This document shows, piece by piece, positions 3,994-20,774 of a stretch of DNA of 64,000 nt. Position numbers and translations under genes: made by a program. Within the stretch, counting starts at the first letter, position 1, and every line of letters begins with the position of its first letter. The notes under the pieces were generated by a model. That model saw nothing but the letters and a program-made list of their open reading frames with translations. It was not told where the DNA came from and did no database searches. Source of the stretch: Bretschneidera sinensis (lineage: Eukaryota > Streptophyta > Magnoliopsida > Brassicales > Akaniaceae); NCBI GenBank assembly GCA_023935145.1, contig CM043698.1:74137001-74201000 (forward strand). Reading direction: 5' to 3'.

Positions 3994-5193
3994 TGTTAAG
4001 ATATTTAGTTTAATCCCCATATGTTTTGATGAAGACAAACCATGCATTTATTACTAATCTAGTTCAATGAGTGCGCAGGATATTTAGTGTTGAATTTAAG
4101 GATAAAAAGATCTTTGTCAAGATACAATATCAAGGGGAGTTTTGCATAGTAAAGATGTGTCGGTTGAAAAAATGGCGTGCACACAAGTGTGTGCACAAAT
4201 GCGTGCGCATCTGAGGAGGAACCAGTCGACTAGCAAGTGAACTGGTCGACTGACCAGTCGACAAGCAGGTGAACGTGGCAAGGACCAAAAGCATGCGCGC
4301 GAGTGTGTATAAGTACGTGCGTGGACCAGAAGCACCAGTAGAGGAGCCAGCCGATCGATAAATGATCGATTGATTGGTTAGGTCATTGGAAAGGGACTAA
4401 CTGACTAGTTAGTGGACCGGTGGTAGTCGATCAGCCAACCGACCAGTGGAAAGGTCAACCGACCTGTGGTGGAGTCAGTCGACCACTAGAGGAGTTGGCT
4501 AACTGGTCAATCAACTTGTGGAGTGCGATTAGTCAGCTGACCATCCGATTGGTAAGGAGAACTAATCAGCTTACCAACCAACCGGAGTAGAAAGGGATTT
4601 TAAAGGACCAGTCTGAAGATCCGGTCTACTAAAAAGAAGACCAATCGACTAAGTAATCGACTGGAGATGCCCGTTGGAGATCAAAGGATTTGCATTTAAA
4701 GAGAATCTTAGTCAAAAAAGGAATGTTTCAAAGTTGCCTTTTGTGAAGGCTTAGCTGAAGCTATAAATCAGAAGTTTCGGAAGGGAGTTCAGTAAAAGAG
4801 AAGAATAAGTCTTAAGTATAACTTATGAGTTACAAGATTAAGTTTTGTTTTACTACTCCAGTAGTGTTTAATCTGTAAGAGTTGTGAGATTGAGTGATAT
4901 CTCTTTATAAGGTTGCTTGCTACACTTAAAGTTAAGTAGAGTGTAAAGGTTTTCTTGGTACCTGAAAATCTAAGCCAGTGTAACAAGTTAGTGATTAGTG
5001 AAACTTAGTAGACCGGGAAGCCTATTGAAGAAGTGGGCGTAGGCACGATTATTGCCAAACCACTATAAATCCGTGTCCTCTCTTCTCTCTCTTTAGATAT
5101 TTAATTTCTGTTTAAATTCTTCAATATTATTTATTGTTCTAATCATTCAAATATATTATAGAACAAACTCACCTCCACTCATATTTTCTTACA
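3994..5193 (+). repeat. 5' LTR of Cop-C
   Basis: 1200 bp, starting TGTTAAGATATTTAG and ending TTTTCTTACA directly before the primer site. It pairs with 6657-7784. Its middle (about 4200-4665) is packed with CCAGTCGAC/GGTCGACTG motifs. Confidence 0.9.
4206..4769 (+). promoter_or_regulatory. Cop-C U3 array of CCAGTCGACT motifs and TATA box
   Basis: Between 4206 and about 4665 variants of CCAGTCGACT and CCGACCAG follow one another, many forming self-complementary GTCGAC cores. GCTATAAATCAG at 4760-4771 is a good TATA box about 95 bp after the array. The right LTR has the matching array at about 6855-7290 and TTATAAATC near 7370. The layout suggests an upstream activating array. Confidence 0.6.
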
Positions 5194-9396: not shown

Positions 9397-9955
9397 TGTA
9401 CCGACCCATCCCAGGTTGGTCACCTCGAGACGGTATCGCCACATTTTACTATCTTATGACACATAAATGGAACAATATAATACTTCCACACAAAATAAAA
9501 TACATTCAAGCCTCAACCCTCAATAAGGGAGTTACATTATCAAAATCCTATCTGAAACAATCTATACAACATATATAAATGCATGAATAATTACGACTTC
9601 AAATTTTTGTTTTTTCTTCTTGCATTAGTCCGAGGATATGGATCATGGGACTTACATAATATAACTCACTTTGTATTTTTGCTCAAAATTTCTATTTGTT
9701 TTGCCAGCTGCCTGAAATTATTTAATAATGAGGAGTGAGCTTTACAAGCTCAGTGAATTAAATCTACTAGAAGTACTCGATTTGTATACTTCTAGTTGCA
9801 ATTTATTATTCAATAAATCAAATAATTTGTCAATATATATTTTTAACTGTCATCTCATAATTATAATTCAATAATAATTTTCTTCTATCTTTACTTATAT
9901 TGTAAATCCAATAATCGTATAGTATTCTTTCAAAATCTATCTCATATATATATAC
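9397..9955 (-). repeat. Tekay-like LTR, piece 1 (3' end of the LTR)
   Basis: The plus strand begins TGTACCGACCCATCCCAGG. Its complement closely matches the end of the Tekay LTR at 47955-48007 (CCGTCTCG, then GGTGACCAACC, then GGGAT). The stretch GAGTGAGCTTTACAAGCTC near 9733 matches the complement of 47660-47685. It is therefore an old minus-strand chromovirus LTR, cut at 9955 by Cop-A and continued at 20114 and 62995. The partner LTR and internal region are not seen, so it may be a solo LTR. Confidence 0.7.
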
Positions 9956-11147
9956 TGAGGTTTTAACCCAAGAAGGGGGTGAATTGGGTTTTTGAAAACT
10001 TTTGCTAATTAAACACAAGTTTATAAAAACTGATAACACCACAAGCATATAAACAAGTAATATGTGTTATAAATAAAGAGTTTAAGGAATAGAGAATGCA
10101 AAATCAGTTTAAGTATATAAACAAGCATATATATATAGTGGTTCGGCAATATCAGATTCGTTCCGACCCCACATCCACTCTCTTCAAGGAACCTCCTTGA
10201 AGTAATCCACTAAGAAATTTAGTCGTGCAACTTCATGGGTGTTGCACAAACCTTACAATCCCTTCATCTCGGAAGCAAACCCTTCCTCTTGGAAGTAAAT
10301 CCCTTTACAATAAATGCTGTAAAGTAAATGGTAGAGTGACAACGATGAAGACTTATACAACTAAATAATATCTTTCTTTCAAGGTAAAGCTTGAAGAATG
10401 GCTAAGCACAAATTTTTCAAAGCTTTTTTGTGTACCAAAGAGAAAAAATCAGATTTAATGTGTAACCCTTGTTCTTAAATGCTCAGTTGAATGGGTTTAT
10501 ATAGCCTTAATGTAATATGCCCGTTCTGTGCAGATTTGGTACGCTTTTGTACGTTAAATATACAGGTCTGGCGCCATAACGATTATATTTTTTGAATTAC
10601 CAGTCGACTAGATCTTAGTACCAGTAGATTGGGTCCACTTTAAAAATCTCATTTTTAAGGCTATTATAGGTACCAGTCGACTGGGAACTTTCTGCCCAAA
10701 GTACCAGTCGATCGGGTTGATCTTACCAGTAGACTAGAGACTGTCTGTCCAAAATACCAGTCGACCGCTATGAACCATCCAGTCGACTGTGAACACACTG
10801 TCTAAAACACTAGTCTTCTGGTGTAAGTACCTAGTCGACTGGGTTGCCTTTCAACCCAGCTTTTCATTCTTTTAAAAGGTTATGATTTCAAAACGATAGT
10901 TTTTAAAATGCTTTTTCAAAAGGAGCCATTGGACAAGCTAATTACTTGAACAAGTAAGACTTACAACTTGTGTTAATACCTTAGACCTATACTAGTTCTT
11001 CTGTCTTCACTTGATGTTTGATTCGGGTTGAGTTCTTGCATCTTGATCCTTGGTTGAATGCTCTTATTGCTTAATACACTTAGATAGCATCATTAGTATA
11101 ATAAGAGTTATGCTTTGTCATCATTAAAATATAGGTGAGGATCAACA
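9956..11147 (-). repeat. 3' LTR of Cop-A
   Basis: 1192 bp. On the plus strand it runs TGAGGTTTTAACCC to GGATCAACA; on the minus strand it starts TGTTGATCC and ends CCTCA. It differs from its partner by a TA-rich insertion near 10111-10138 and by having two instead of four copies of the CTCGGAAG-type 22-bp repeat (10261-10304). Confidence 0.9.
10496..10842 (-). promoter_or_regulatory. Cop-A U3: CCAGTCGACTGG array and TATA box
   Basis: About nine copies of TACCAGTCGACTGGG or variants lie between 10598 and 10842 at spacings of roughly 20-40 bp. On the minus strand they are followed about 95 bp later by GGCTATATAAACCC (TATA box at 10503-10496). The core CCAGTCGACTGG is a perfect 12-bp palindrome, so it reads the same on either strand. 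The other LTR has the same array (19564-19810) and TATATAAAC at 19470-19462. Confidence 0.7.
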
Positions 11148-11832
11148 ATCTCTCTCTTTTTTATGATGACAAAACTAAAGAGAGAAAACTGTTTAAAAAA
11201 CTAAGTGTTGGATTTTTTGAAAAAAATCGGGCAGAGTCTCCTCTGTTTTTTGAACTAAACCAACTTGTACAGGATCAAAAACAGTTTATATGCAACCCAA
11301 CCAATCAACTCAATCATTTATAAACATATAACAATATCTTTGGAGCTACGCTCCCCCTAAATTTATGCACTAGTTTGAGTTTATAGTTAGTTTTCACATT
11401 TTTCTCATTTTTTCTCCCCCGTTTTGACAACAGCAGAAAAGGGGCTAGTAAACCAACAAATAATCTATATAGCTACCATAAACATGAAGAGCATGTATAA
11501 ACAAACTTTTATACAAAAATATAGTATCATTTAGAGTTCGAAAGCCTTCCCAAGAAGAACCGGAAGTTTCCTTACATGCAGAAGCAGTTTTAAAGCATTT
11601 AACCGAATATAAAGTGATATATAGCATGCAACTAAATTACATATAAGTAGAACTCGTACATGAAATAGGTCTAAGAATGAAGCATCATCATCTATAACAA
11701 AATTCTATACAAGGACAGGCTTCGTAGAGCCAAACAGAAGTACAAAATACAATAAAACATGAAAATATGTCTGTGCTAAGACAATAAGAAACAATATCAT
11801 CATGTACATCAAAAAGGGGATAGACAAAGGAC
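11148..11832 (-). other. 3' UTR of Cop-A with three purine tracts
   Basis: Minus strand, reading toward the LTR: AAACGGGGGAGAAAAAA (about 11426-11410), ATTTAGGGGGAGC (about 11366-11352) and AAAAAAGAGAGAGAT (11162-11148), which directly abuts the LTR and is the likely plus-strand primer. The two upstream G-runs resemble the usual Copia tract next to an LTR. No coding sequence was recognised between 11148 and 11832. Confidence 0.65.
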
Positions 11833-12988
11833 TCAGGGAGTAGGAGAGTAGCCGTCACGAATGAGATCTCGAATCTCAGCCAAGGAACTCTCGGTGCGCT
11901 TTCGGTGTAGTCCGAAGTCATCTCGGAGGGTCTCAATAGAAGAGCTCAAGGTCTGGAAGCCAGACTGCATGGTCAGCTGAAGGCTTGTGATAGCCTGAAG
12001 TAGATCGTCGTACCCAGCCTGACCAGCACTCAAGTCACCCATAGGAGGTGCTCGGGAATCCGTATCCAAATCAGCAGCATCAGTAGCAGCACCCTTGTCC
12101 TCATCATCACTGTTGTCGTCCTTTTCAATCCTAATGTGCTTCCCGGACTTGGAGTAGATGAAGCCATCTCGAACTGTGCATCCCATCTTCTTCAGCGAGG
12201 AGACATTGATGATGTCCTTGAGGCCGATGTCCTGAGCCTCGAAGGCAGGGAGAGACACCCGGAAGTGCTGGAGTATGAGCGTGATGAACATCCCATAGGA
12301 AAGACATTCAAAGTCGTTCGCTTTACCATTAATCATGTTGGCGAGCGGCAAGGGGTATATATTGAAGTGGTGCCCAGTTTTAAGGCACCAAATCAATACG
12401 GTATCTATCTTAGATAGATATTCCCAACTCCTTAGTCTCGAATGGATGGTCCAACTCACAATAAGGTTGAACAATTTCGAGTATAAGGGCATGTCACTAC
12501 ATGTGTGAAATGTAATAGGTCGAAACACATAGTTAGGGTCGCCCCTAACTATCCGACATGCCTCCTCAACCTTAAAATTGTCTGGCCATCCATCCAGACT
12601 CCATTGAATCCTTGGGAGGGATCCTCAAAATGTTCATCAAGAGGTCAGTATTGACCTCAAACTCCACACCCATGACACTGGTTTTGAATCTCAGAGCCAG
12701 TGGACTAGGTTTCACCAAGTTCGCATAAAACTGGTGAATCAGTCTAGGGTAGTACTTCTCATGTATCTTAACCAGTGGGGTCAAGTTAATAGCCCCAAAT
12801 ACAGGTAAAATATCAAAATTACCATGGTGAATAGAGTTAAAGTCGACAACTCTACCCGTCATGATTTTCTTTTTCCTTATTACAGAGGTATACCTATCCT
12901 TGGCCGCCGGGCTAGAGAACAGAGAGTCGTTAAGCTCTGTTCTGGGCTTTTTACTGGATGCACCCTTCCCCCGTGAATCCGAAGCCAT
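11833..12988 (-). pseudogene. Env-like ORF of Cop-A (putative plant transposon protein family), one frameshift
   Basis: Starts at ATG 12988 (MASDSRGKGASSKKP), runs 138 codons, shifts frame near 12575 and continues to a stop at 11833, about 380 residues in all. The N-terminal half has LIHQFYANLVKPSP and a VMGVEFEVNTDLLMNIL segment. The middle has LSKIDTVLIWCLKTGHHFNI and PLANMINGK. Then come an acidic linker (DDNSDDEDKG) and a C-terminal coiled-coil-like part (LLQAITSLQLTMQSGFQ). The pattern FYxNL, then V(x)G(I/V)xxEV, is shared with the ORF at 52590. I recall such proteins as the putative plant transposon domain found downstream of pol. No signal peptide or clear membrane segment is visible, so envelope function is unproven. 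Confidence 0.65.
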
Positions 12989-13275
12989 GGATTAGGTGGA
13001 ACTTGGTGTTGTAGGCACATTTGGTCCCCCAGTGGTGTATTTTACTCATATTCTATCAGATATTTTTGGGAAAAAGTGTTTTTGGGTAAAATGGGTTTTG
13101 TGAGGAAATAGTGGATTTCAACCGTAGAAAGTTAAAATAGATGTTGGGGATGAGTAGATCAATGTGTTTTGGTAGTGTTTGATGGTTTTTGGATCAAAAT
13201 GGTGAGATTTTGTAGAAAGAGAAAGCTAGGGGATTTTGAAAATGGTGTGAAAATCTTTAAAAAAAAAATGAACAA

Positions 13276-13548
13276 CCTATTTATAGAATTGTGATACCAG
13301 TCGACTGGGTCCTTTGCAGAGAAGAACAGTTTTGCATACCATTTGACTGGGTAAAGGTACCAGTTGACTAGATGAATTGGCAGAAAGATACCAATCGATT
13401 GGATAGTTTTTACCAGTCGACTGGGTTGATAACTGAATTTCAAAAAATGGCTCAAACAAGGTCTAGTCGACTGGTAGCATTACCAATCGACTGGAAGAAT
13501 AGGCAAAGACTTACCAGTCGACTGGGATAGACTTACCAGTTGACTGGA
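13276..13548 (-). promoter_or_regulatory. Internal CCAGTCGACTGG array and TATA box before the env-like ORF
   Basis: Between pol and the env-like ORF lie about nine copies of TACCAGTCGACTGGG or variants (near 13296, 13337, 13358, 13389, 13411, 13463, 13481, 13512 and 13534). They are followed on the minus strand by TTCTATAAATAGG (TATA box 13286-13276), and the env-like ATG is about 290 bp on. This repeats the motif and order of the LTR promoter. I read it as a second, internal promoter; no transcript evidence is available here. Confidence 0.6.
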
Positions 13549-13688
13549 CCCTTAAAAAAAGTTTTGATTTTTGAGTCTTAGAACGAAATTTGTTTATTTA
13601 TGCCATCTTGCGTGAGGGAGATATTAAATAAGAATTAATACTCTTTCACTAGATGTCAAGTTATGTATAATGATGAATGATGAAGCTA

Positions 13689-15135
13689 TCAAATATTCAG
13701 TTTATCATAATTTAACAATCCCATTAATAGTCTAATTTTGCAGAAACTAGCTTCATTTAGAGATTTTGTAAGAATGTCAGCTATTTGATCCTCTGAAGGT
13801 GTGAATTCTAATCTTATATCACCTTTTTTAGCATGGTCTCTTAAGAAATAATGTCTAATTTCTATGTGTTTAGCTCTAGAGTGCTGAATAGGGTTCTTGG
13901 TTAGGTTGATAGCACTAATATTATCACAATGTATGGGTATACTTTTAAGGTTCATGCTATAGTCTTCTAGTTGTTGTTTCATCCATAACACTTGGGCACA
14001 ACAACTTCTAGCTGCTACATATTCTGCCTCGGCGGTTGATAGTGCAACAGAGTTTTGTTTCTTGGAAAACCAAGAGGTTAACATTGCACCTAAGAATTTG
14101 CATGTTCCACTTGTGCTTTTTCTATCTAACCTACATCCAGCAAAATCAGCATCTGAATATCCTACAAGCTCAAAAGATGAATCTCTAGAGTACCATAATC
14201 ATATGGTTTGAGTTCCTTGTAGATATCTAAGGATTCTTTTTACTGCAACTACATGTGATTCCTTAGGATTAACCTGAAATCTAGCACACATGCATACACT
14301 GAACATTATATCAGGTTTACTTGCAGTCAAATAAAGTAAAGCTCCTATCATGCTTCTATAATATTTAATGTCTACACACTTACCTTCTTCATCAAGATCA
14401 AGTTTTGTAGATGTGCTAATAGGTGTACCAAGTGGCTTTAAGCTTTCCATCCCAAACCTCTTTAGAAGGTCCTTAGTGTATTTTGAGTGATTGATGAAGA
14501 TGCCTCCTTTCAATTGTTTGATTTGAAGTCCAAGGAAGTAGGTAAGCTCTCACATCATGCTCATTTCAAATTCACCTTGCATGCACTTTGCAAACTCTTG
14601 ACACATATATTCATTAGTAGCACCAAATATAATATCATCAACATATATTTGGACAAGTAGAGTTTCGTTTTTTGTGAGTTTTTATGAAGAGGGTTGTGTC
14701 TATCTTACCTCTTACAAAGTTATTGTCAATCAAGAATTTACTTAGTCTTTCATACCATGCTCTTGGAGCTTGCTTCAACCCATATAGAGCTTTAGAAAGC
14801 TTGTAGACATGATTTGGAAGACTATGATTCTCAAATCCAAGAGGTTGCTCAACATAAACCTCTTCCTCTATAAAGCCATTTAAGAAGGAACTTTTTACAT
14901 CCATTTGAAATAACTTAAACTTATTAAAGCATGCAAAGGCTAATAAAATTCAAATAGCTTCTAATCTAGCTACGGGAGCATAGGTCTCATCAAAGTCTAT
15001 TCCTTCTTCTTGATTATATCCCTTAGCAACTAGTCTAGTCTTGTTTCTAGTCACTATTCCATTTTCATCCATCTTATTTCTAAATACCCATTTAGTTCCA
15101 ATTATTGTATGATTCTTAGGTCTAGGAACTAGATT
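13689..15135 (-). pseudogene. Copia RT and RNase H of Cop-A, broken
   Basis: RT begins near 15130 ([11 protein letters not shown], then [16 protein letters not shown]) and continues with QMDVKSSFLNGFIEEEVYVE and YGLKQAPRAWYERL (14750-14900). The catalytic YVDD is read at about 14640 (IYVDDIIFGA). Next are YFLGLQIKQLKGGIF, KPLGTPIS and YRSMIGALLYL. RNase H follows with SDADFAG, KKQNSVALSTAEAEYVAA, IHCDNISAI and HIEIRHYFLRDH, and pol ends at 13689 in NYDKLNI. Frame breaks occur near 14945, 14640, 14555 and 14200. The catalytic residues survive, but the chain cannot be made whole. Confidence 0.88.
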
Positions 15136-16368
15136 TCATACATTGTTTCTTTCAAATTGATTTATTTCTTCTTGCATGGCAATTATCCAATCATTATCCT
15201 TTTCAGCTTCTTTAAATGTCTTAGGTTCTACTTGAGACAAATAAGCTACATAATTGCAAATATTCCTAGTAGAGGAACGAGTTATTACCCCTTGTGAAGG
15301 ATCACCAATCACTTGATCAATTGGATGATAATTTACATACCTCCAATCTTTGGGAAGACTATCCTCTTGTCGGCTTGTAGATGGTTGGTCCAATTTGAGA
15401 GTTTCCATCTTTTCATTTGTTTGAGGTGGACTCTCATTTGGGTCAACAATGGGAGTAGGTGTTTCTATTCTTGGAATAAAATCTGCATCATCATTGAAAG
15501 AAACTTTTCTACTACTAATTGGGTTAGACTCATCAAGAGTTACATGAACGAATTCTTCTACTACTAGAGTTCTTTTGTTGAAGACTCTATAAGACTTACT
15601 AAAAGTTGAATATCCTAAAAGGATCCCTGCATCGGTCTTAGAGTCAAATTTACCCAAGTTAGTTTTATTATCATTTAGGATGAAGCATTTATAGCCAAAA
15701 GTTCAAAAATAGGAGATATTAGGCTTTCTACCTTTCCATAATTCATACGGAGTTTTGTCAAGCATAGGCTTAATTAAAATTCTATTCAAGATATAGCAAG
15801 AAGTGTTTATTGCTTCAGCCTAAAAGTATTTTGATAAACTATTTTCACAAAGCATTGTTCTTGAAAATTCTTCTAGAACTCTATTTTTCCTTTCAACAAC
15901 TCTATTTTGTTGAGGAGTTCTAGGAGCTGAAAAGTTGTGATCAATTCCATTTTCATCACAACATTTTGAAAAACTTTGGTTTTCAAATTTTTTTTCCATG
16001 ATCACTTCTAATGCTTGAAATATAAATTTCTTTTTCATTTTGAACCTTTTTGCAAAAATTTTCAAATCCTTTGAAAGCTTTATCCTTGTAAGCAATAAAG
16101 ATAACAAAGGTATATCTTGAATAGTTATCAACAATAACGAGAGCATATTGATGGCCACCTAGACTAATGGTACTTATTGGCCAAATAAGTCCATATGCAA
16201 AAGTTCCAATGGTCTAGTAGTTAAGACTACATTCTTTGATTTAAAAGAAATCCTAGTTTGTTTTCTCATTTGACAAGTATCACATACTTTGTCTTTTTCA
16301 AAATTAATTTTTGGAAGTCCAATGGTTAAATCTTTTCTAGAAATTATTTTAAGCAAATTCATGTTCAC
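15136..16368 (-). pseudogene. Copia integrase and linker of Cop-A, broken
   Basis: The zinc-binding region ends in KVCDTCQMRKQTRISF (near 16270), then LELLHMDLFGQ with the first catalytic Asp (16180). The region of the second Asp (about 16100) is degraded by stops. The Glu motif APRTPQQNRVVERKN is clear at 15890-15935. The C-terminal part has GKFDSKTDAGILLGYS and YRVFNKRTLVVEE, and the Pro/Ser-rich linker to RT contains GVITRSSTRN. Stops at 16366, 16160 and 15820 split it. It would insert the cDNA into host chromatin. Confidence 0.85.
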
Positions 16369-16386
16369 ATGACCAAGCCTTCTATG

Positions 16387-16890
16387 CTATAGCCATGGAT
16401 TTTCACTAATGGCAGGAAAACGTTTTTCATTTTTGGAATGCAAGGATTTTAAATCAACTATATAGACATTTTCATGTCTATGGCCAATAAATTTGATCTT
16501 GTTACTCTTGATGTCTATAACTAGATTTTGAGAGGTCTTAAATGTGACTTTGTTGCTTTTGTCACAAAGTTGACTAATACTTAGTAAATTTGGCTTAAGG
16601 CCTTGCACTAGCAATACATTATCTATGGTTGAGAAATCGTTACCAATTTTTTCATGCCCGATGATCTTTATTTTGTGTTGTCTCCAATGGTGATAAGTCC
16701 ACAATCTCTTAGAGTTAGCTCCTTGAATACACTTTTATCACCGGTCATGTGTTTTGAGCATCCACTATCAAGGTACCAACAGTTACCTTTTTCCTTGGTG
16801 TGGAGACATATCTACATCACACAAGGATATGCAATGGCATTTTTAGGTACCCAAAATTTCTTGGGTCTTTTGGGACCCATACTTTCTTAA
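16387..16890 (-). pseudogene. Copia protease and GAG-pre-integrase region of Cop-A
   Basis: The protease active site reads WYLDSGCSKHMTGDKS at about 16725-16775, then LTLRDCGLITIGDN. After a frameshift near 16690 come IGHEKIGN, NVLLVQGLKPNLLSISQLCD and the RHENVYIVDL block of the pre-integrase domain. A TAG where Trp is usual in this family stands at 16386 before HRRLGH. Upstream (16830-16890) the RPKKFWVPK-type link to Gag can be read. Confidence 0.82.
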
Positions 16891-17149
16891 CAACATATGG
16901 TGTTTTATAGACATGATAATGATCAACAGTCCTAGGATGATAGTTATTGAAATTTCTAGGAGTATTTAGTTATGCATGCCTATAATGCTTAGGATATGAG
17001 TTCCTAGGATACATGTTTCTATCGTGAGGAATATGAATATACATGTCATTTCCATAAAAATGTATGATGGTGATTTCTAGGATACATGCTTGTATGCACA
17101 CTATTTCTAGGATGACCATGATGGTAACTCCTAGTATATGTACATGCAG

Positions 17150-18841
17150 TGTGCAAGTTTTGATTACTCATATAGTTCTAGGATGCATATGATGATTATT
17201 CCTAAGATGTTTATAAGCATTCATTGAATGAGCATACATATAAGCATGAATATTTCTAGGATTTTTCATTTTTGTATATGCATTAGAATTAGCATTTATA
17301 GACATGTTAGCATTCATTGAGGGTGTGATTTTGACCTTGCTAGTGACCTTTGACGTAGAGGCTTTATTCACACAAGAAGCTTTTATGAATAAGCTCTCTT
17401 TTGAATTTTGCTTGCCTAATGGAGAGTATCCTAACCCTGATTTTCCTCCACTGAATCTTTAGCAAGAAAACACTTCATCAAGCTTTTCTTTTCCAAGTAT
17501 GAGTCTAGATATAGTATCATTCAATTCTAATATCTTATTCTTTAAGTTTTCATTTTCATCTTTTAGGAAATCTTGAGAAGAATCATAAAGCAACGAGGAT
17601 AGTTTATCTTTTTCTTCTCTTAGAATTATCATTTCTTTAGAAAGAGATGATACCTCTTTCTTAAGAGTTGAGTTCCTAGAATCGAATTTCTTCAATTCAT
17701 CATGCATTTCATTTATGACTTATAACAATTCTTCACTACTACTAACGATGTTATTTTTAGAAGAGGGAGAAGATAATACCTCATTTTCTTCATCGATTGC
17801 CATGAGATAAAGGTTTACAATTTTCTCATATCTGACTTCTTTATCCGAGGAGTCTTCTTCTTTGTCATCACTCCAAGTGGTTGCTATCATAGCTTTCTTC
17901 TTGAAGTTTTTGTATGGTTTGCTTGTAGCTGTGCAATCAGCCTTAATGTGATCGGGCTTCTTGCATCCATGGCACACAAGTAGTTCCCTTTTTGAGGTGG
18001 GATCCTTTGTGTATGGCTTCTTCATTTTCTTCAAGAATATATGAAATCGTATAGTGATTAAGGCCATTTCTCCATCCTCTTCATTGCTCTCAGTTTCTTC
18101 TTCTGATTCCTCTTCTTTGTTGCATATAGAGGCTTTGAGAGCAATTAACTTTTTCTTCTTCTTATCATCATTGACAATGGGATTCATTTATTCCATCTCA
18201 TATGTCAACAATGACCCAAGAAGTGTCTCAACATTAAGTATGTCAAGATCTTTGGCCTCTGTGATGGCAGTCTTCTTTGCTTTCCAAGTGGGTGGCAAAG
18301 ATCTTAAGATTTTTCTTGTTAGTTCAAACTCCTCAATTTTCCTACTAAGAAGCTTCAAACCATTAACAATAGTTGTGAAACGTGAGTGCCTTTGAGAAAT
18401 TGTTTCATTAGGAGACATTCTAAAAGATTTATATTCAGAAACTAGCATATAGATTTTTGATTTTTTAACCTCATTAGTTCCTTCATATGTAACTTGTGAT
18501 TTATCCCATATCTCCTTAGCTGAAACACATGCAGAGATTTTATTGTATTTAGATATATCTAAAGTACAATGTAAAATACTTGTGGCTCTACTATTGAGAG
18601 ACATCATTCTACAATCCTCATCATTGTACTCAGATTTGAGTTTAGACATTGTATGATTGATTTCTCCAATAGTTATTTCCTTTGATGGAATTCTAGGTCC
18701 TTCTTCAGTGACTCTCCATAGATTATAATCTTGTCATTCGACAAAGATTTTCATCCTGTTTTTCCAATAGTTATAGTTGGAGCCATTGAACAAAGGAGGC
18801 CTAGTATATAAGTGTCCCTCAGAATAGCTATTTGCTGCCAT
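17150..18841 (-). pseudogene. Copia gag of Cop-A with coiled-coil tail, broken
   Basis: The ATG at 18841 gives MAANSYSEGHLYTRPPLFNG, followed by the SNYNYWKNRM signature. Next is a UBN2-type capsid-like region (18650-18188) with IWDKSQVTYEGTNEVKKSKI and RKILRSLPPTWKAK. An acidic stretch follows, then the zinc knuckle CHGCKKPDHIKADC (about 17935-17980), intact CCHC. A Glu/Lys/Leu-rich coiled coil (17459-17707, ending LGKEKLDEVFSC) leads into KSGLGYSP. The tail at 17168-17371 is Asn/Met/His-rich. Stops interrupt at about 18740, 18188, 17720 and 17459; most lie where Gln or Trp is expected. Confidence 0.85.
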
Positions 18842-18871
18842 CGGATCAACTCAAGGATATAAACCTAAAAA

Positions 18872-18893
18872 TGAGAACCTGGATCTGATACCA
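18872..18893 (-). promoter_or_regulatory. Primer binding site (initiator tRNA-Met)
   Basis: The minus strand reads TGGTATCAGATCCAGGTTCT close behind the 5' LTR, the standard Copia Met primer site with one or two changes. Confidence 0.9.
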
Positions 18894-18902
18894 ATTATAG
18901 AC

Positions 18903-20113
18903 TGAGGTTTCAACCCAAGAGGGGGGTGAATTGGGTTTTTAAAAACTTTTGCTAATTAAACACAAGTTTATAAAAACTGATAACACCACAAGCATATAAA
19001 CAAGTAATATGTGCTGTAAATAAAGAGTTTAAGGAATAGAGAATGCAAACTCAGTTTATAATGGTTCGACAATATCGGATTCATTCCGATCCTACGTCCA
19101 CTCTCTTCAAGGAACTTCCTTGAAGTAATCCACTAAGAAACTTAGTCGTGCAACTTCACGGGTGTTGCACAAACCTTACAATGCCTTCCTCTCGGAAGCA
19201 AACCCCTTCCTCTCGGAAGCAAACCCTTCCTCTCGGAAGTAAATCCCTTCCTCTCGAACGTAAATCCCTTTACAATAAATGTTGTAAAGTAAATGGTAAA
19301 GAGACAATGATGAAGACTTATACAACTGAATAAAATCTCTCTTTCAAGGTAAAACTTGAAGAATGGCTCAGCATAAATTTTTCAAAGCCTTTTTGTGTAT
19401 CAAAGAGTAAAAACCAGATTTAATGTGTAACTCTTTGTTCTTAAATGCTCAGTTGAATGAGTTTATATATCCTTGATGTAATATGCCCGTTCTGTGCAGA
19501 TTTGGTACGCTTTTGTACATTAAATGTACAGGTCTGGCGCTATAACGGTCATATTTTTTGAATTACCAGTCGACTGGATCTTAGTACCAGTCGACTGGGT
19601 CCACTTTAAAAATCCCATTTTTAAGGCTATTGAAGGTACCAGTCGACTGGGAACTTTCTGCCCAAAGTACCAGTCGACTAAGTTGATCTTACCAGTCGAC
19701 TAGGGACTGTCTGTCCAAAACACCAGCCGACTGGTATGAAGCATCCAGTCGACTGTGGACACATTGTCCAAAACACCAGTCTTCTAGTTTAAGTACCTAG
19801 TCGATTGGGTTGTCATTCAACCCAGTTTTTCATTCTTTTAAAAGGTTATGATTTTAAAACGATGGTTTTTAAAATGTTTTTTCAAAAGGAGGCATTGGAC
19901 AAGCTAATTACCTGAACAAGTAAGACTTACAACTTGTGTTAATACCTTAGACCTATACTAGTTCTTCTGTCTTCACTTGATGTTTGATTCGGGTTGAGTT
20001 CTTGCATCTTGATCTTTGGTTGAATGCTCTTATTGCTTAATACACTTAGATAGCATCGTTAGTATAATATGAGTTGTGTTTTGTCATCATTAAAATAAAG
20101 GTGAGGGTCAACA
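18903..20113 (-). repeat. 5' LTR of Cop-A
   Basis: 1211 bp, TG...CA, partner of 9956-11147. It carries four copies of the 22-bp CTCGGAAG-type repeat at 19184-19269 where the partner has two, the CCAGTCGACTGG array at 19564-19810 and a TATA box at 19470-19462 (minus strand). Confidence 0.9.
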
Positions 20114-20774
20114 ATATATCATTTCAATTTTTCTACTCAAATATTTGATCAACTTAAGATTTTCATTTCAATATCACTATCATCTTCTTATTATTATAAT
20201 TTACCTCGTCATGAGGTTTACAACATACAATTAATCAATTAAATATTTTTTTTATCATTTTATATTTTTTTTCTCATCATATCTATCTTTTTATGAGACT
20301 TATCTATTTATCAATCATTTCACAATCAAGATTGATGTTTTAACATCTAAATCAACAATAATTAAAGAATTGCATGAATTTAAATTTTCTTTCTTTCCTT
20401 CTAATTAAATCATCTCATTTAATCATCTCATTTAATAATTTCTTTTAATAATCTCATTTAATCACCTTTTTTAATCATCTCATTTAATCATCTCATTTAA
20501 TCATTTCTTTTAATCATCTCATTTAATCATCTCATTTATTAATCTCTTTTAATCATCTCATTTAATCAATTTTCTTTTTCATCACATCATCCATTCAAAT
20601 CATATAATCATTTGGGAACGTCTTCTAACATGTCGACATGTTTCAGCCTGACCGGCTACATTCCCGGTCTTCCCTTTATTTATAACTAGCTACATTCTTG
20701 GTCTTCATTTTTATGCATATGAACAACAACATGCAAGCAGGTATAACACGTCATACAATTCAAAAATTATTTTA
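20114..20774 (-). repeat. Tekay-like LTR, piece 2
   Basis: Continues the LTR of 9397-9955 after Cop-A. The stretch GGGAACGTCTTCTAACATG and the GTCGAC that follows (20632-20660) match the complement of 47281-47310. The following GACCGGCTACATTCCCGG units correspond to the CCGGGAAGGCAGCCGG minisatellite at 47134-47266. It is AT-rich and is interrupted at 20774 by Cop-B. Confidence 0.7.
20400..20580 (+). repeat. AATCATCTCATTT minisatellite
   Basis: About a dozen imperfect copies of AATCATCTCATTT/AATCATTTCTTTT in tandem, within the Tekay-like LTR piece. Nothing comparable is seen in the copy at 46036, so it is probably a local expansion. Confidence 0.8.

Follow-up and report, generated by a model that had tools for sequence, protein, structure and literature searches.

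Palindromic repeated motifs (RM) have been described in 13 Sireviruses, both in the long terminal repeats (LTRs) and upstream of the envelope-like gene ENV (Bousios et al., 2010; PMC2829016). RM copies precede ENV in all nine ENV-containing Sireviruses (77 of 79 linker copies), and an internal promoter for the third gene was proposed in 2002 and supported in 2010, when none had been conclusively identified (PMC2829016). Third open reading frames (ORFs) occur in 74% of SIRE elements, across 19 unrelated groups (PMC6317226). Here we describe Cop-A, a Ty1/copia element in a 64,000-nucleotide stretch of the Bretschneidera sinensis genome (the window; contig CM043698.1, positions 74,137,001 to 74,201,000). 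As in the elements of Bousios et al., its U3 regions carry many palindromes ahead of the TATA box, and more of them are clustered between pol and the third ORF (ORF3). The segment in front of ORF3 is probably an internal RNA polymerase II (Pol II) promoter that gives ORF3 of this Sirevirus-type copia family its own mRNA.

The segment and the ORF that it precedes consist of the following features.

13297..13547, minus strand: internal array of nine CCAGTCGACTGG palindromes, helically phased, each with at most 2 mismatches
13276..13286, minus strand: TATA box of the proposed internal promoter, CTATAAATAGG, 23 bp from the start of the last palindrome to the TATA start
13050..13275, minus strand: proposed transcript start region and ORF3 leader, with a predicted start about 30 bp past the TATA box
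13047..13049, minus strand: position aligned with the start codon of ORF3 in the family, the frame being broken in Cop-A
12572..12988, minus strand: first open piece of ORF3, matching PF20167 weakly, at 23.8 bits against a cut-off of 45
11833..12528, minus strand: second open piece of ORF3, in another frame

The first-pass annotation had described about nine motif copies and a minus-strand TATA box ahead of a third ORF, and this description holds. The ATG at 12988, which it took as the start of that ORF, has to be given up: the longer, open ORF3 of relatives begins about 60 bp farther upstream. In the sense of the element the palindromes are spaced 22-31-20-50-22-31-21-42 bp apart. Those at 13297, 13413 and 13514 are exact, three have one mismatch and three have two. 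The 64-kb window contains 30 matches to CCAGTCGACTGG with at most 2 mismatches (nine in the internal array, eight in each LTR and five in other places), while 0.68 are expected and the maximum in 100 shuffles was 3. In the whole 1.21-Gb genome there are 55,578 exact palindromes, compared with 11 for the reversed control. These two comparisons rule out a chance origin of the palindromes.

The array and the TATA box recur throughout the family. We scored the best 40 of 3,476 genome candidates found with the ORF3 coding DNA as the query, which yielded 30 loci, Cop-A included. In 29 of these loci, recruited by coding DNA alone, an array of at least five sites lies upstream of ORF3, and a TATA box is found 270-307 bp before the position aligned with the ATG of Cop-A; only L017 differs, with two sites and without a TATA box. 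The array is not absent ahead of the third ORF in relatives; such absence in intact relatives was the outcome that the first-pass annotation had named as speaking against its reading. A second query, which included the array and the TATA box, gave 3,791 candidates, of which the best 40 were scored and from which loci L039-L068 were recruited. The fullest copies show a stereotyped spacing of about 22-31-22-60-22-31-21-42-22 bp, and other copies have lost sites. Most strikingly constant is the position of the TATA box, as expected of a Pol II promoter: of 54 distinct copies (62 loci were taken and 61 aligned), 53 have its start exactly 23 bp past that of the last palindrome, among them 24 of the 24 recruited by ORF3 coding DNA alone; most of the others came from the second query. 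The one deviating copy, L044, reads CATAAATAG at this place. In L080, a young copy whose LTR parts differ by a single mismatch in 896 columns, the TATA box is TCTATAAAAGGG and a 418-aa ORF3 starts 218 nt after the TATA start.

The spacing of the palindromes follows the turn of the DNA helix. Genome-wide, 14,757 pairs of exact sites are 21-22 bp apart and 7,173 are 31-32 bp apart, against only 247 at 23-30 bp and 47 at 33-40 bp, between whole turns. Among the listed pairs at 23-30 bp, most are 30 bp apart, one base below 31, and the reversed motif gave no pair in any of the four spacing classes. The list of sites, from which four isolated ones were left out, has its periodicity peak at 10.4 bp with a vector strength of 0.895 (78 gaps below 200 bp). 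Since copies share descent, six arrays were also examined one by one, namely the internal and U3 arrays of Cop-A, of L080 and of L069, a relative that lacks ORF3. The best period is 10.3-10.6 bp in each of them, and out of 20,000 random layouts of the same span, 0-19 reach the observed value with a minimum gap of 12, and 0-159 with a minimum gap of 20. The internal TATA box and the last palindrome are about 20 bp apart from centre to centre, which is two turns. The palindromes thus sit along one face of the DNA helix, at multiples of about 10.4 bp.

This phasing points to palindromes that are kept for a DNA-bound protein rather than for RNA hairpins. If they acted as RNA, hairpins in the genomic RNA would feed small RNAs or regulate translation. 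The array does fold far better than its shuffles (z of -11.8 in L080 and -7.1 in Cop-A), and small RNAs concentrate on the LTR palindromes of maize Sireviruses (PMC10760457, PMC5311732). However, palindromes fold anyway, and hairpins explain neither the 10.4-bp register nor the fixed distance to the TATA box, so that we give this explanation hardly any credence.

We then considered what ORF3 encodes. In L080 its product matches PF20167 (Transposase_32) with 56.7 bits, above the curated cut-off of 45. Membrane helices usually exceed a hydropathy threshold of 1.6; the maximum for 19 residues in this protein is 1.19. Its N-terminus is basic and includes the motif KKPR, an acidic stretch is also present, and the tail is heptad-like and may form a coiled coil, by a crude count that flags another stretch too. 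The ORF had been taken for env-like, but by its features it does not look like an envelope: it is a PF20167 protein without a membrane helix by hydropathy. Comparison of the L080 protein with 5.8 billion proteins returned 5,875 candidates, none of which reached an E-value of 0.001, and among solved structures the best E-values were only 0.22 and 0.3. The best PF20167 matches in the genome (L070-L079) belong to another family, whose ORFs reach 386 aa. None of these ten loci, which are close relatives of one another, has the palindromes, and the idea that the array generally accompanies PF20167 ORFs was dropped.

Two further observations were made during these searches. At L070 the PF20167 ORF follows an apparent gypsy integrase end, recognized by eye (Pfam gave only E-values of 0.036 and 0.076, for other families), and PF20167 seems to serve as a third ORF in two retrotransposon superfamilies. 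Moreover, among the ORF3 matches listed, four on the same strand follow each other in steps of about 9.09 kb (G000 C5:7692312-7720412), apparently because elements are arranged in tandem there.

ORF3 is under purifying selection. The ratio of nonsynonymous to synonymous substitution rates (dN/dS) is 0.15-0.19 when L080 is compared with seven other copies; among these seven, which are partly decayed, it is 0.23-0.66. By a hand count, 122 of the best 138 matches (out of 8,533 candidates) have no stop in the matched part. Together, stop-free matches and low dN/dS indicate that open copies exist and that ORF3 was selected while the family moved.

How ORF3 is expressed is constrained by the sequence in front of it. 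In L080, 710 nt lie between the stop of pol and the start of ORF3, and the three frames of this interval contain 8, 13 and 10 stops. Simple suppression of a stop codon, and hence readthrough as in SIRE1, is thereby excluded. Alternatively, the LTR transcript might yield the ORF3 product after splicing or through internal initiation, in which case the array and TATA box would be no promoter. The env-like genes of other plant elements are reported to be spliced (PMC7264820), and in L080 a TAG preceded by a pyrimidine tract lies between the TATA box and the ATG. That TAG reads TAC or otherwise in older copies and is, unlike the TATA box, not conserved; with the stops in all frames on the other count, we regard expression from the LTR transcript as very unlikely.

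The leader was analyzed in 47 of 60 loci, after duplicates and loci without a recognized TATA box or start had been dropped. After the TATA box, 23 of the 47 copies (among L010-L068) have AAACCCTA, which we take to be a telo-box, followed by a CT-rich stretch. This combination is found in many plant 5' leaders.

The internal array was then compared with the promoters of the two LTRs.

10600..10842, minus strand: palindrome array in the U3 of the 3' LTR, eight sites by motif scan
10495..10504, minus strand: TATA box of the 3' LTR, CTATATAAAC (start 10495 counted on the plus strand)
19566..19808, minus strand: palindrome array in the U3 of the 5' LTR, eight sites by motif scan
19461..19470, minus strand: TATA box of the 5' LTR, ATATATAAAC, which differs from CTATATAAAC (start 19461 counted on the plus strand)

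Both U3 regions had been said to carry the same motif array and TATA sequence. The arrays are there, with eight sites each, but the 5' LTR has ATATATAAAC and not CTATATAAAC. The internal TATA box adjoins its array, whereas in the LTR the nearest site is 95 bp away from the TATA box. AACGG elements are present in the U3 regions of L080 (200-900), L069 (1-1000) and Cop-A (window 19430-20100), whereas none occurs in the internal segment of Cop-A or of L080. One of the U3 elements of L080, and one of L069, presumably corresponds to the consensus of the M-phase activator (MSA), a hint of expression in dividing cells.

Is the internal segment a copy of the U3, as had been claimed? It shares with the U3 its palindrome, its spacing classes and a TATA box downstream, but not demonstrably the sequence in between. 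When the palindromes were masked and internal segments aligned with U3 regions in 12 same-orientation and 12 inverted comparisons, one of the 24 beat all 200 shuffles: Cop-A internal against the U3 of L080, in the same orientation. The runner-up was reached by 4 of 200 shuffles. The scores of the Cop-A segment against its own two U3 regions are ordinary, being reached by 49 and 39 of 200 shuffles, and none of the 12 inverted comparisons exceeded all shuffles. The last result also disposes of an inverted U3 copy, which some resemblance between spacer words had first suggested. That the U3 promoter was literally duplicated, which would be compatible with an internal promoter, is supported by the common palindrome, spacing classes and TATA box and by the one same-orientation signal. 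Given the ordinary scores against Cop-A's own U3 regions, the missing AACGG element and the different TATA distance, the claimed copy is not demonstrable and such an origin is possible but doubtful; it may have been an old duplication whose spacers have since been erased.

Between subfamilies, the palindromes outlast the sequence between them. Site positions were defined by the motif itself, and a control pair was treated under the same definition. Between L080 and Cop-A, 98 of 108 site positions are identical in the internal array, compared with 88 of 143 spacer positions; in the U3 the values are 98 of 108 and 78 of 135. Site identity is above spacer identity in all seven comparisons between subfamilies, those of L080 with L069 being the weakest (U3 sites 89/118, spacers 74/137; internal sites 70/83, spacers 79/121). 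This indicates that the palindrome sites are under selection.

Several results weigh against an internal promoter of ORF3, or against parts of the evidence for it. The related copies that were counted share descent and are not independent. The internal flanks of L080 and L069 (133/152) are as well preserved as the sites (70/83), and Cop-A's own two decayed LTRs show no advantage of sites (84/96) over spacers (135/147). ATGs are depleted in the leader (17 against 43.2 expected in the 47 copies) and likewise upstream of the TATA box (64 against 128.3); the depletion is unspecific and lends no support to a promoter. Finally, relatives of the L069 type retain a phased internal array, with six sites after pol, although they have neither ORF3 nor this TATA box.

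These relatives were characterized further. L069 has an LTR-to-LTR offset of 7.5 kb, compared with 9.0 kb in Cop-A, and is 89% identical to Cop-A over 3.4 kb, from pol into the internal array. Past the array its sequence is different, with no ORF of at least 100 aa before the 3' LTR. Disregarding gaps, its LTRs mismatch at 8 of 1,510 aligned columns. A 92-bp direct duplication extends across the polypurine tract and the start of the 3' LTR (L069 7252-7435). The sequence after the array has 615 candidates in the genome, and the best 40 of the 615, which were scored, are all at least 95% identical, indicating that ORF3-less copies multiplied recently. Their recent spread, together with the selection on ORF3, suggests that the ORF3 product works in trans.

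The persistence of the array without ORF3 argues against its being solely the promoter of ORF3, and the array may serve another role. It could be an enhancer, a boundary or an anti-silencing site for the whole element, aiding for example the LTR promoter, so that its place before ORF3 would be secondary. The six-site phased array in L069 and its relatives (at least 40 copies at 95% identity or more) is what this explanation accounts for, and the arrays that VANC proteins bind in VANDAL elements of Arabidopsis affect the element as a whole (PMC5735166). It leaves unexplained why the TATA box of ORF3-bearing copies keeps exactly the same distance to the last site, and why ENV-less Sireviruses are described without linker copies (PMC2829016). 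We consider it unlikely.

We favor the internal promoter because array and TATA box are fixed family-wide, readthrough is blocked and ORF3 is selected. Of what was originally proposed, it is the second, LTR-like promoter for the third ORF that is best supported, by the fixed array and TATA box, the stops and the selection; the U3 copy and the envelope have fallen away, and the arrangement is not new. From the sequence we infer protein binding, a transcription start and co-regulation with the LTR. A dimeric DNA-binding activator, encoded by the host or by the element, would occupy the palindromes on one face of the helix, and the row of activators would drive the TATA box that is locked about two turns past the last site. 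Transcription would begin about 30 bp downstream of the TATA box, and a leader of about 190 nt would precede ORF3, which would be translated from its own mRNA. The LTR array would recruit the same activator, and we propose that gag-pol and ORF3 would in this way be switched on together.

A bolder proposal is that ORF3 itself encodes the activator or anti-silencer of the element. The PF20167 protein, with its basic N-terminus, KKPR signal, acidic stretch and heptad-like tail, would bind the phased palindromes as a row of dimers on one face of the DNA; by activating both LTRs and the promoter of its own gene it would close a positive feedback loop, which ORF3-less relatives that keep the arrays would exploit in trans. 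We think this quite unlikely. If it were true, it would be a sequence-specific self-activation system in a Ty1/copia element, in which palindromes that change between lineages serve as an address code.

The assignment of Cop-A to a lineage rests on the rest of the element.

9949..20115, minus strand: Cop-A, a decayed Ty1/copia element, between LTRs 9949-11150 and 18896-20115
18896..20115, minus strand: 5' LTR, approximate limits
18188..18649, minus strand: copia-type gag piece, PF14223 (Pfam match)
14638..14904, minus strand: reverse transcriptase piece, PF07727 (Pfam match)
13689..14084, minus strand: final open piece of pol (RNase H by eye), which terminates ahead of the internal array
9949..11150, minus strand: 3' LTR, approximate limits

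The two LTRs are 88.1% identical. Cop-A has the copia-type gag and reverse transcriptase of a Sirevirus (PF14223, PF07727), and the family has multiple polypurine tracts before the 3' LTR, the final one followed by AT/TG: L080 has three GGGGGAG tracts, the final one being GGGGGAGATTG, and Cop-A has two exact ones. An inverted repeat spans the junction of polypurine tract and 3' LTR, found by eye in Cop-A as TTTTGTCATCAT and ATGATGACAAA and present in L080 with one mismatch. The LTR end and primer site of Cop-A read TA, ATTGG, TATCAGATC, near to the Sirevirus CA / ATTGG, TATCAGAGC, and decayed. Polypurine tracts, junction inverted repeat, primer site and a C-rich LTR end are all described for Sireviruses (PMC2829016). 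By its sequence features, which resemble these descriptions, Cop-A classifies as a Ty1/copia element of the Sirevirus (SIRE) type.

Outside Cop-A, several degenerate TCGA-centred motifs lie near 4222-4653. The surrounding region, window 4170-4700, was matched by none of our LTR, array and pol probes in BLAST.

For the expression of third genes in Sireviruses, a family with a fixed TATA box, a phased array and many open ORF3 copies makes the idea of an internal promoter directly testable. Moreover, the 55,578 exact sites provide the host genome with a large stock of sequence that might act in regulation.

How does this family compare with known systems? Literature searches, judged by title and start of abstract and covering few subscription papers, returned four papers that contain the exact CCAGTCGACTGG 12-mer, none of them on this motif, nothing on phased palindromes in plant LTRs, and three unrelated papers for another TCGA-centred palindrome. 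The BII boxes of Tnt1, repeated symmetrical activator boxes in the U3 of a copia element, bear a likeness to the CCAGTCGACTGG arrays. To our knowledge they occur in the LTR only, in an element with no third ORF.

The arrangement was published in outline in 2010 for the nine ENV-containing Sireviruses (PMC2829016). Unlike 12 of the 13 RM motifs published there, CCAGTCGACTGG does not have a CGG-CCG core. The nearest published motifs are that of Vitis, CGGTCGACCG, which shares the core GTCGAC with CCAGTCGACTGG, and that of Tnd-1, ACAATCGATTGT, the published exception to CGG-CCG (PMC2829016). Helical phasing is present here and absent from the sections of Bousios et al. (2010) that we compared, and in place of ENV the third ORF is a PF20167 protein without a membrane helix. 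Soybean SIRE1, of the same lineage, likewise has a third, env-like ORF after pol; it is expressed by suppression of a stop codon (PMC2829016), whereas here 710 nt with stops in all frames intervene.

The same position between pol and the 3' LTR is occupied by extra genes in Ty3/gypsy elements. Gene23 of maize Grande has its own promoter and encodes a nuclear protein (Gomez-Orte et al., 2013, via PMC7264820). It is antisense to gag-pol and its promoter was studied by experiment (PMC7264820), while ORF3 is in sense orientation, in a Ty1/copia element, and was analyzed as sequence. The 3' extra ORF of sunflower Athila also belongs to PF20167 and has a predicted nuclear signal (PMC11728184); Athila is Ty3/gypsy, and the ten PF20167 ORFs of another family in the present genome have no palindromes. 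VANDAL elements resemble Cop-A in their dense short motifs in non-coding parts and in encoding a further protein. They are DNA transposons for which binding and demethylation have been shown, and the passages compared mention neither palindromes nor phasing (PMC5735166). Within the literature searched, the following features are new: the palindromes are helically phased, the TATA box keeps a fixed distance from them, the motif of a family that has a third gene lacks CGG-CCG, and the third gene of a copia element belongs to PF20167.
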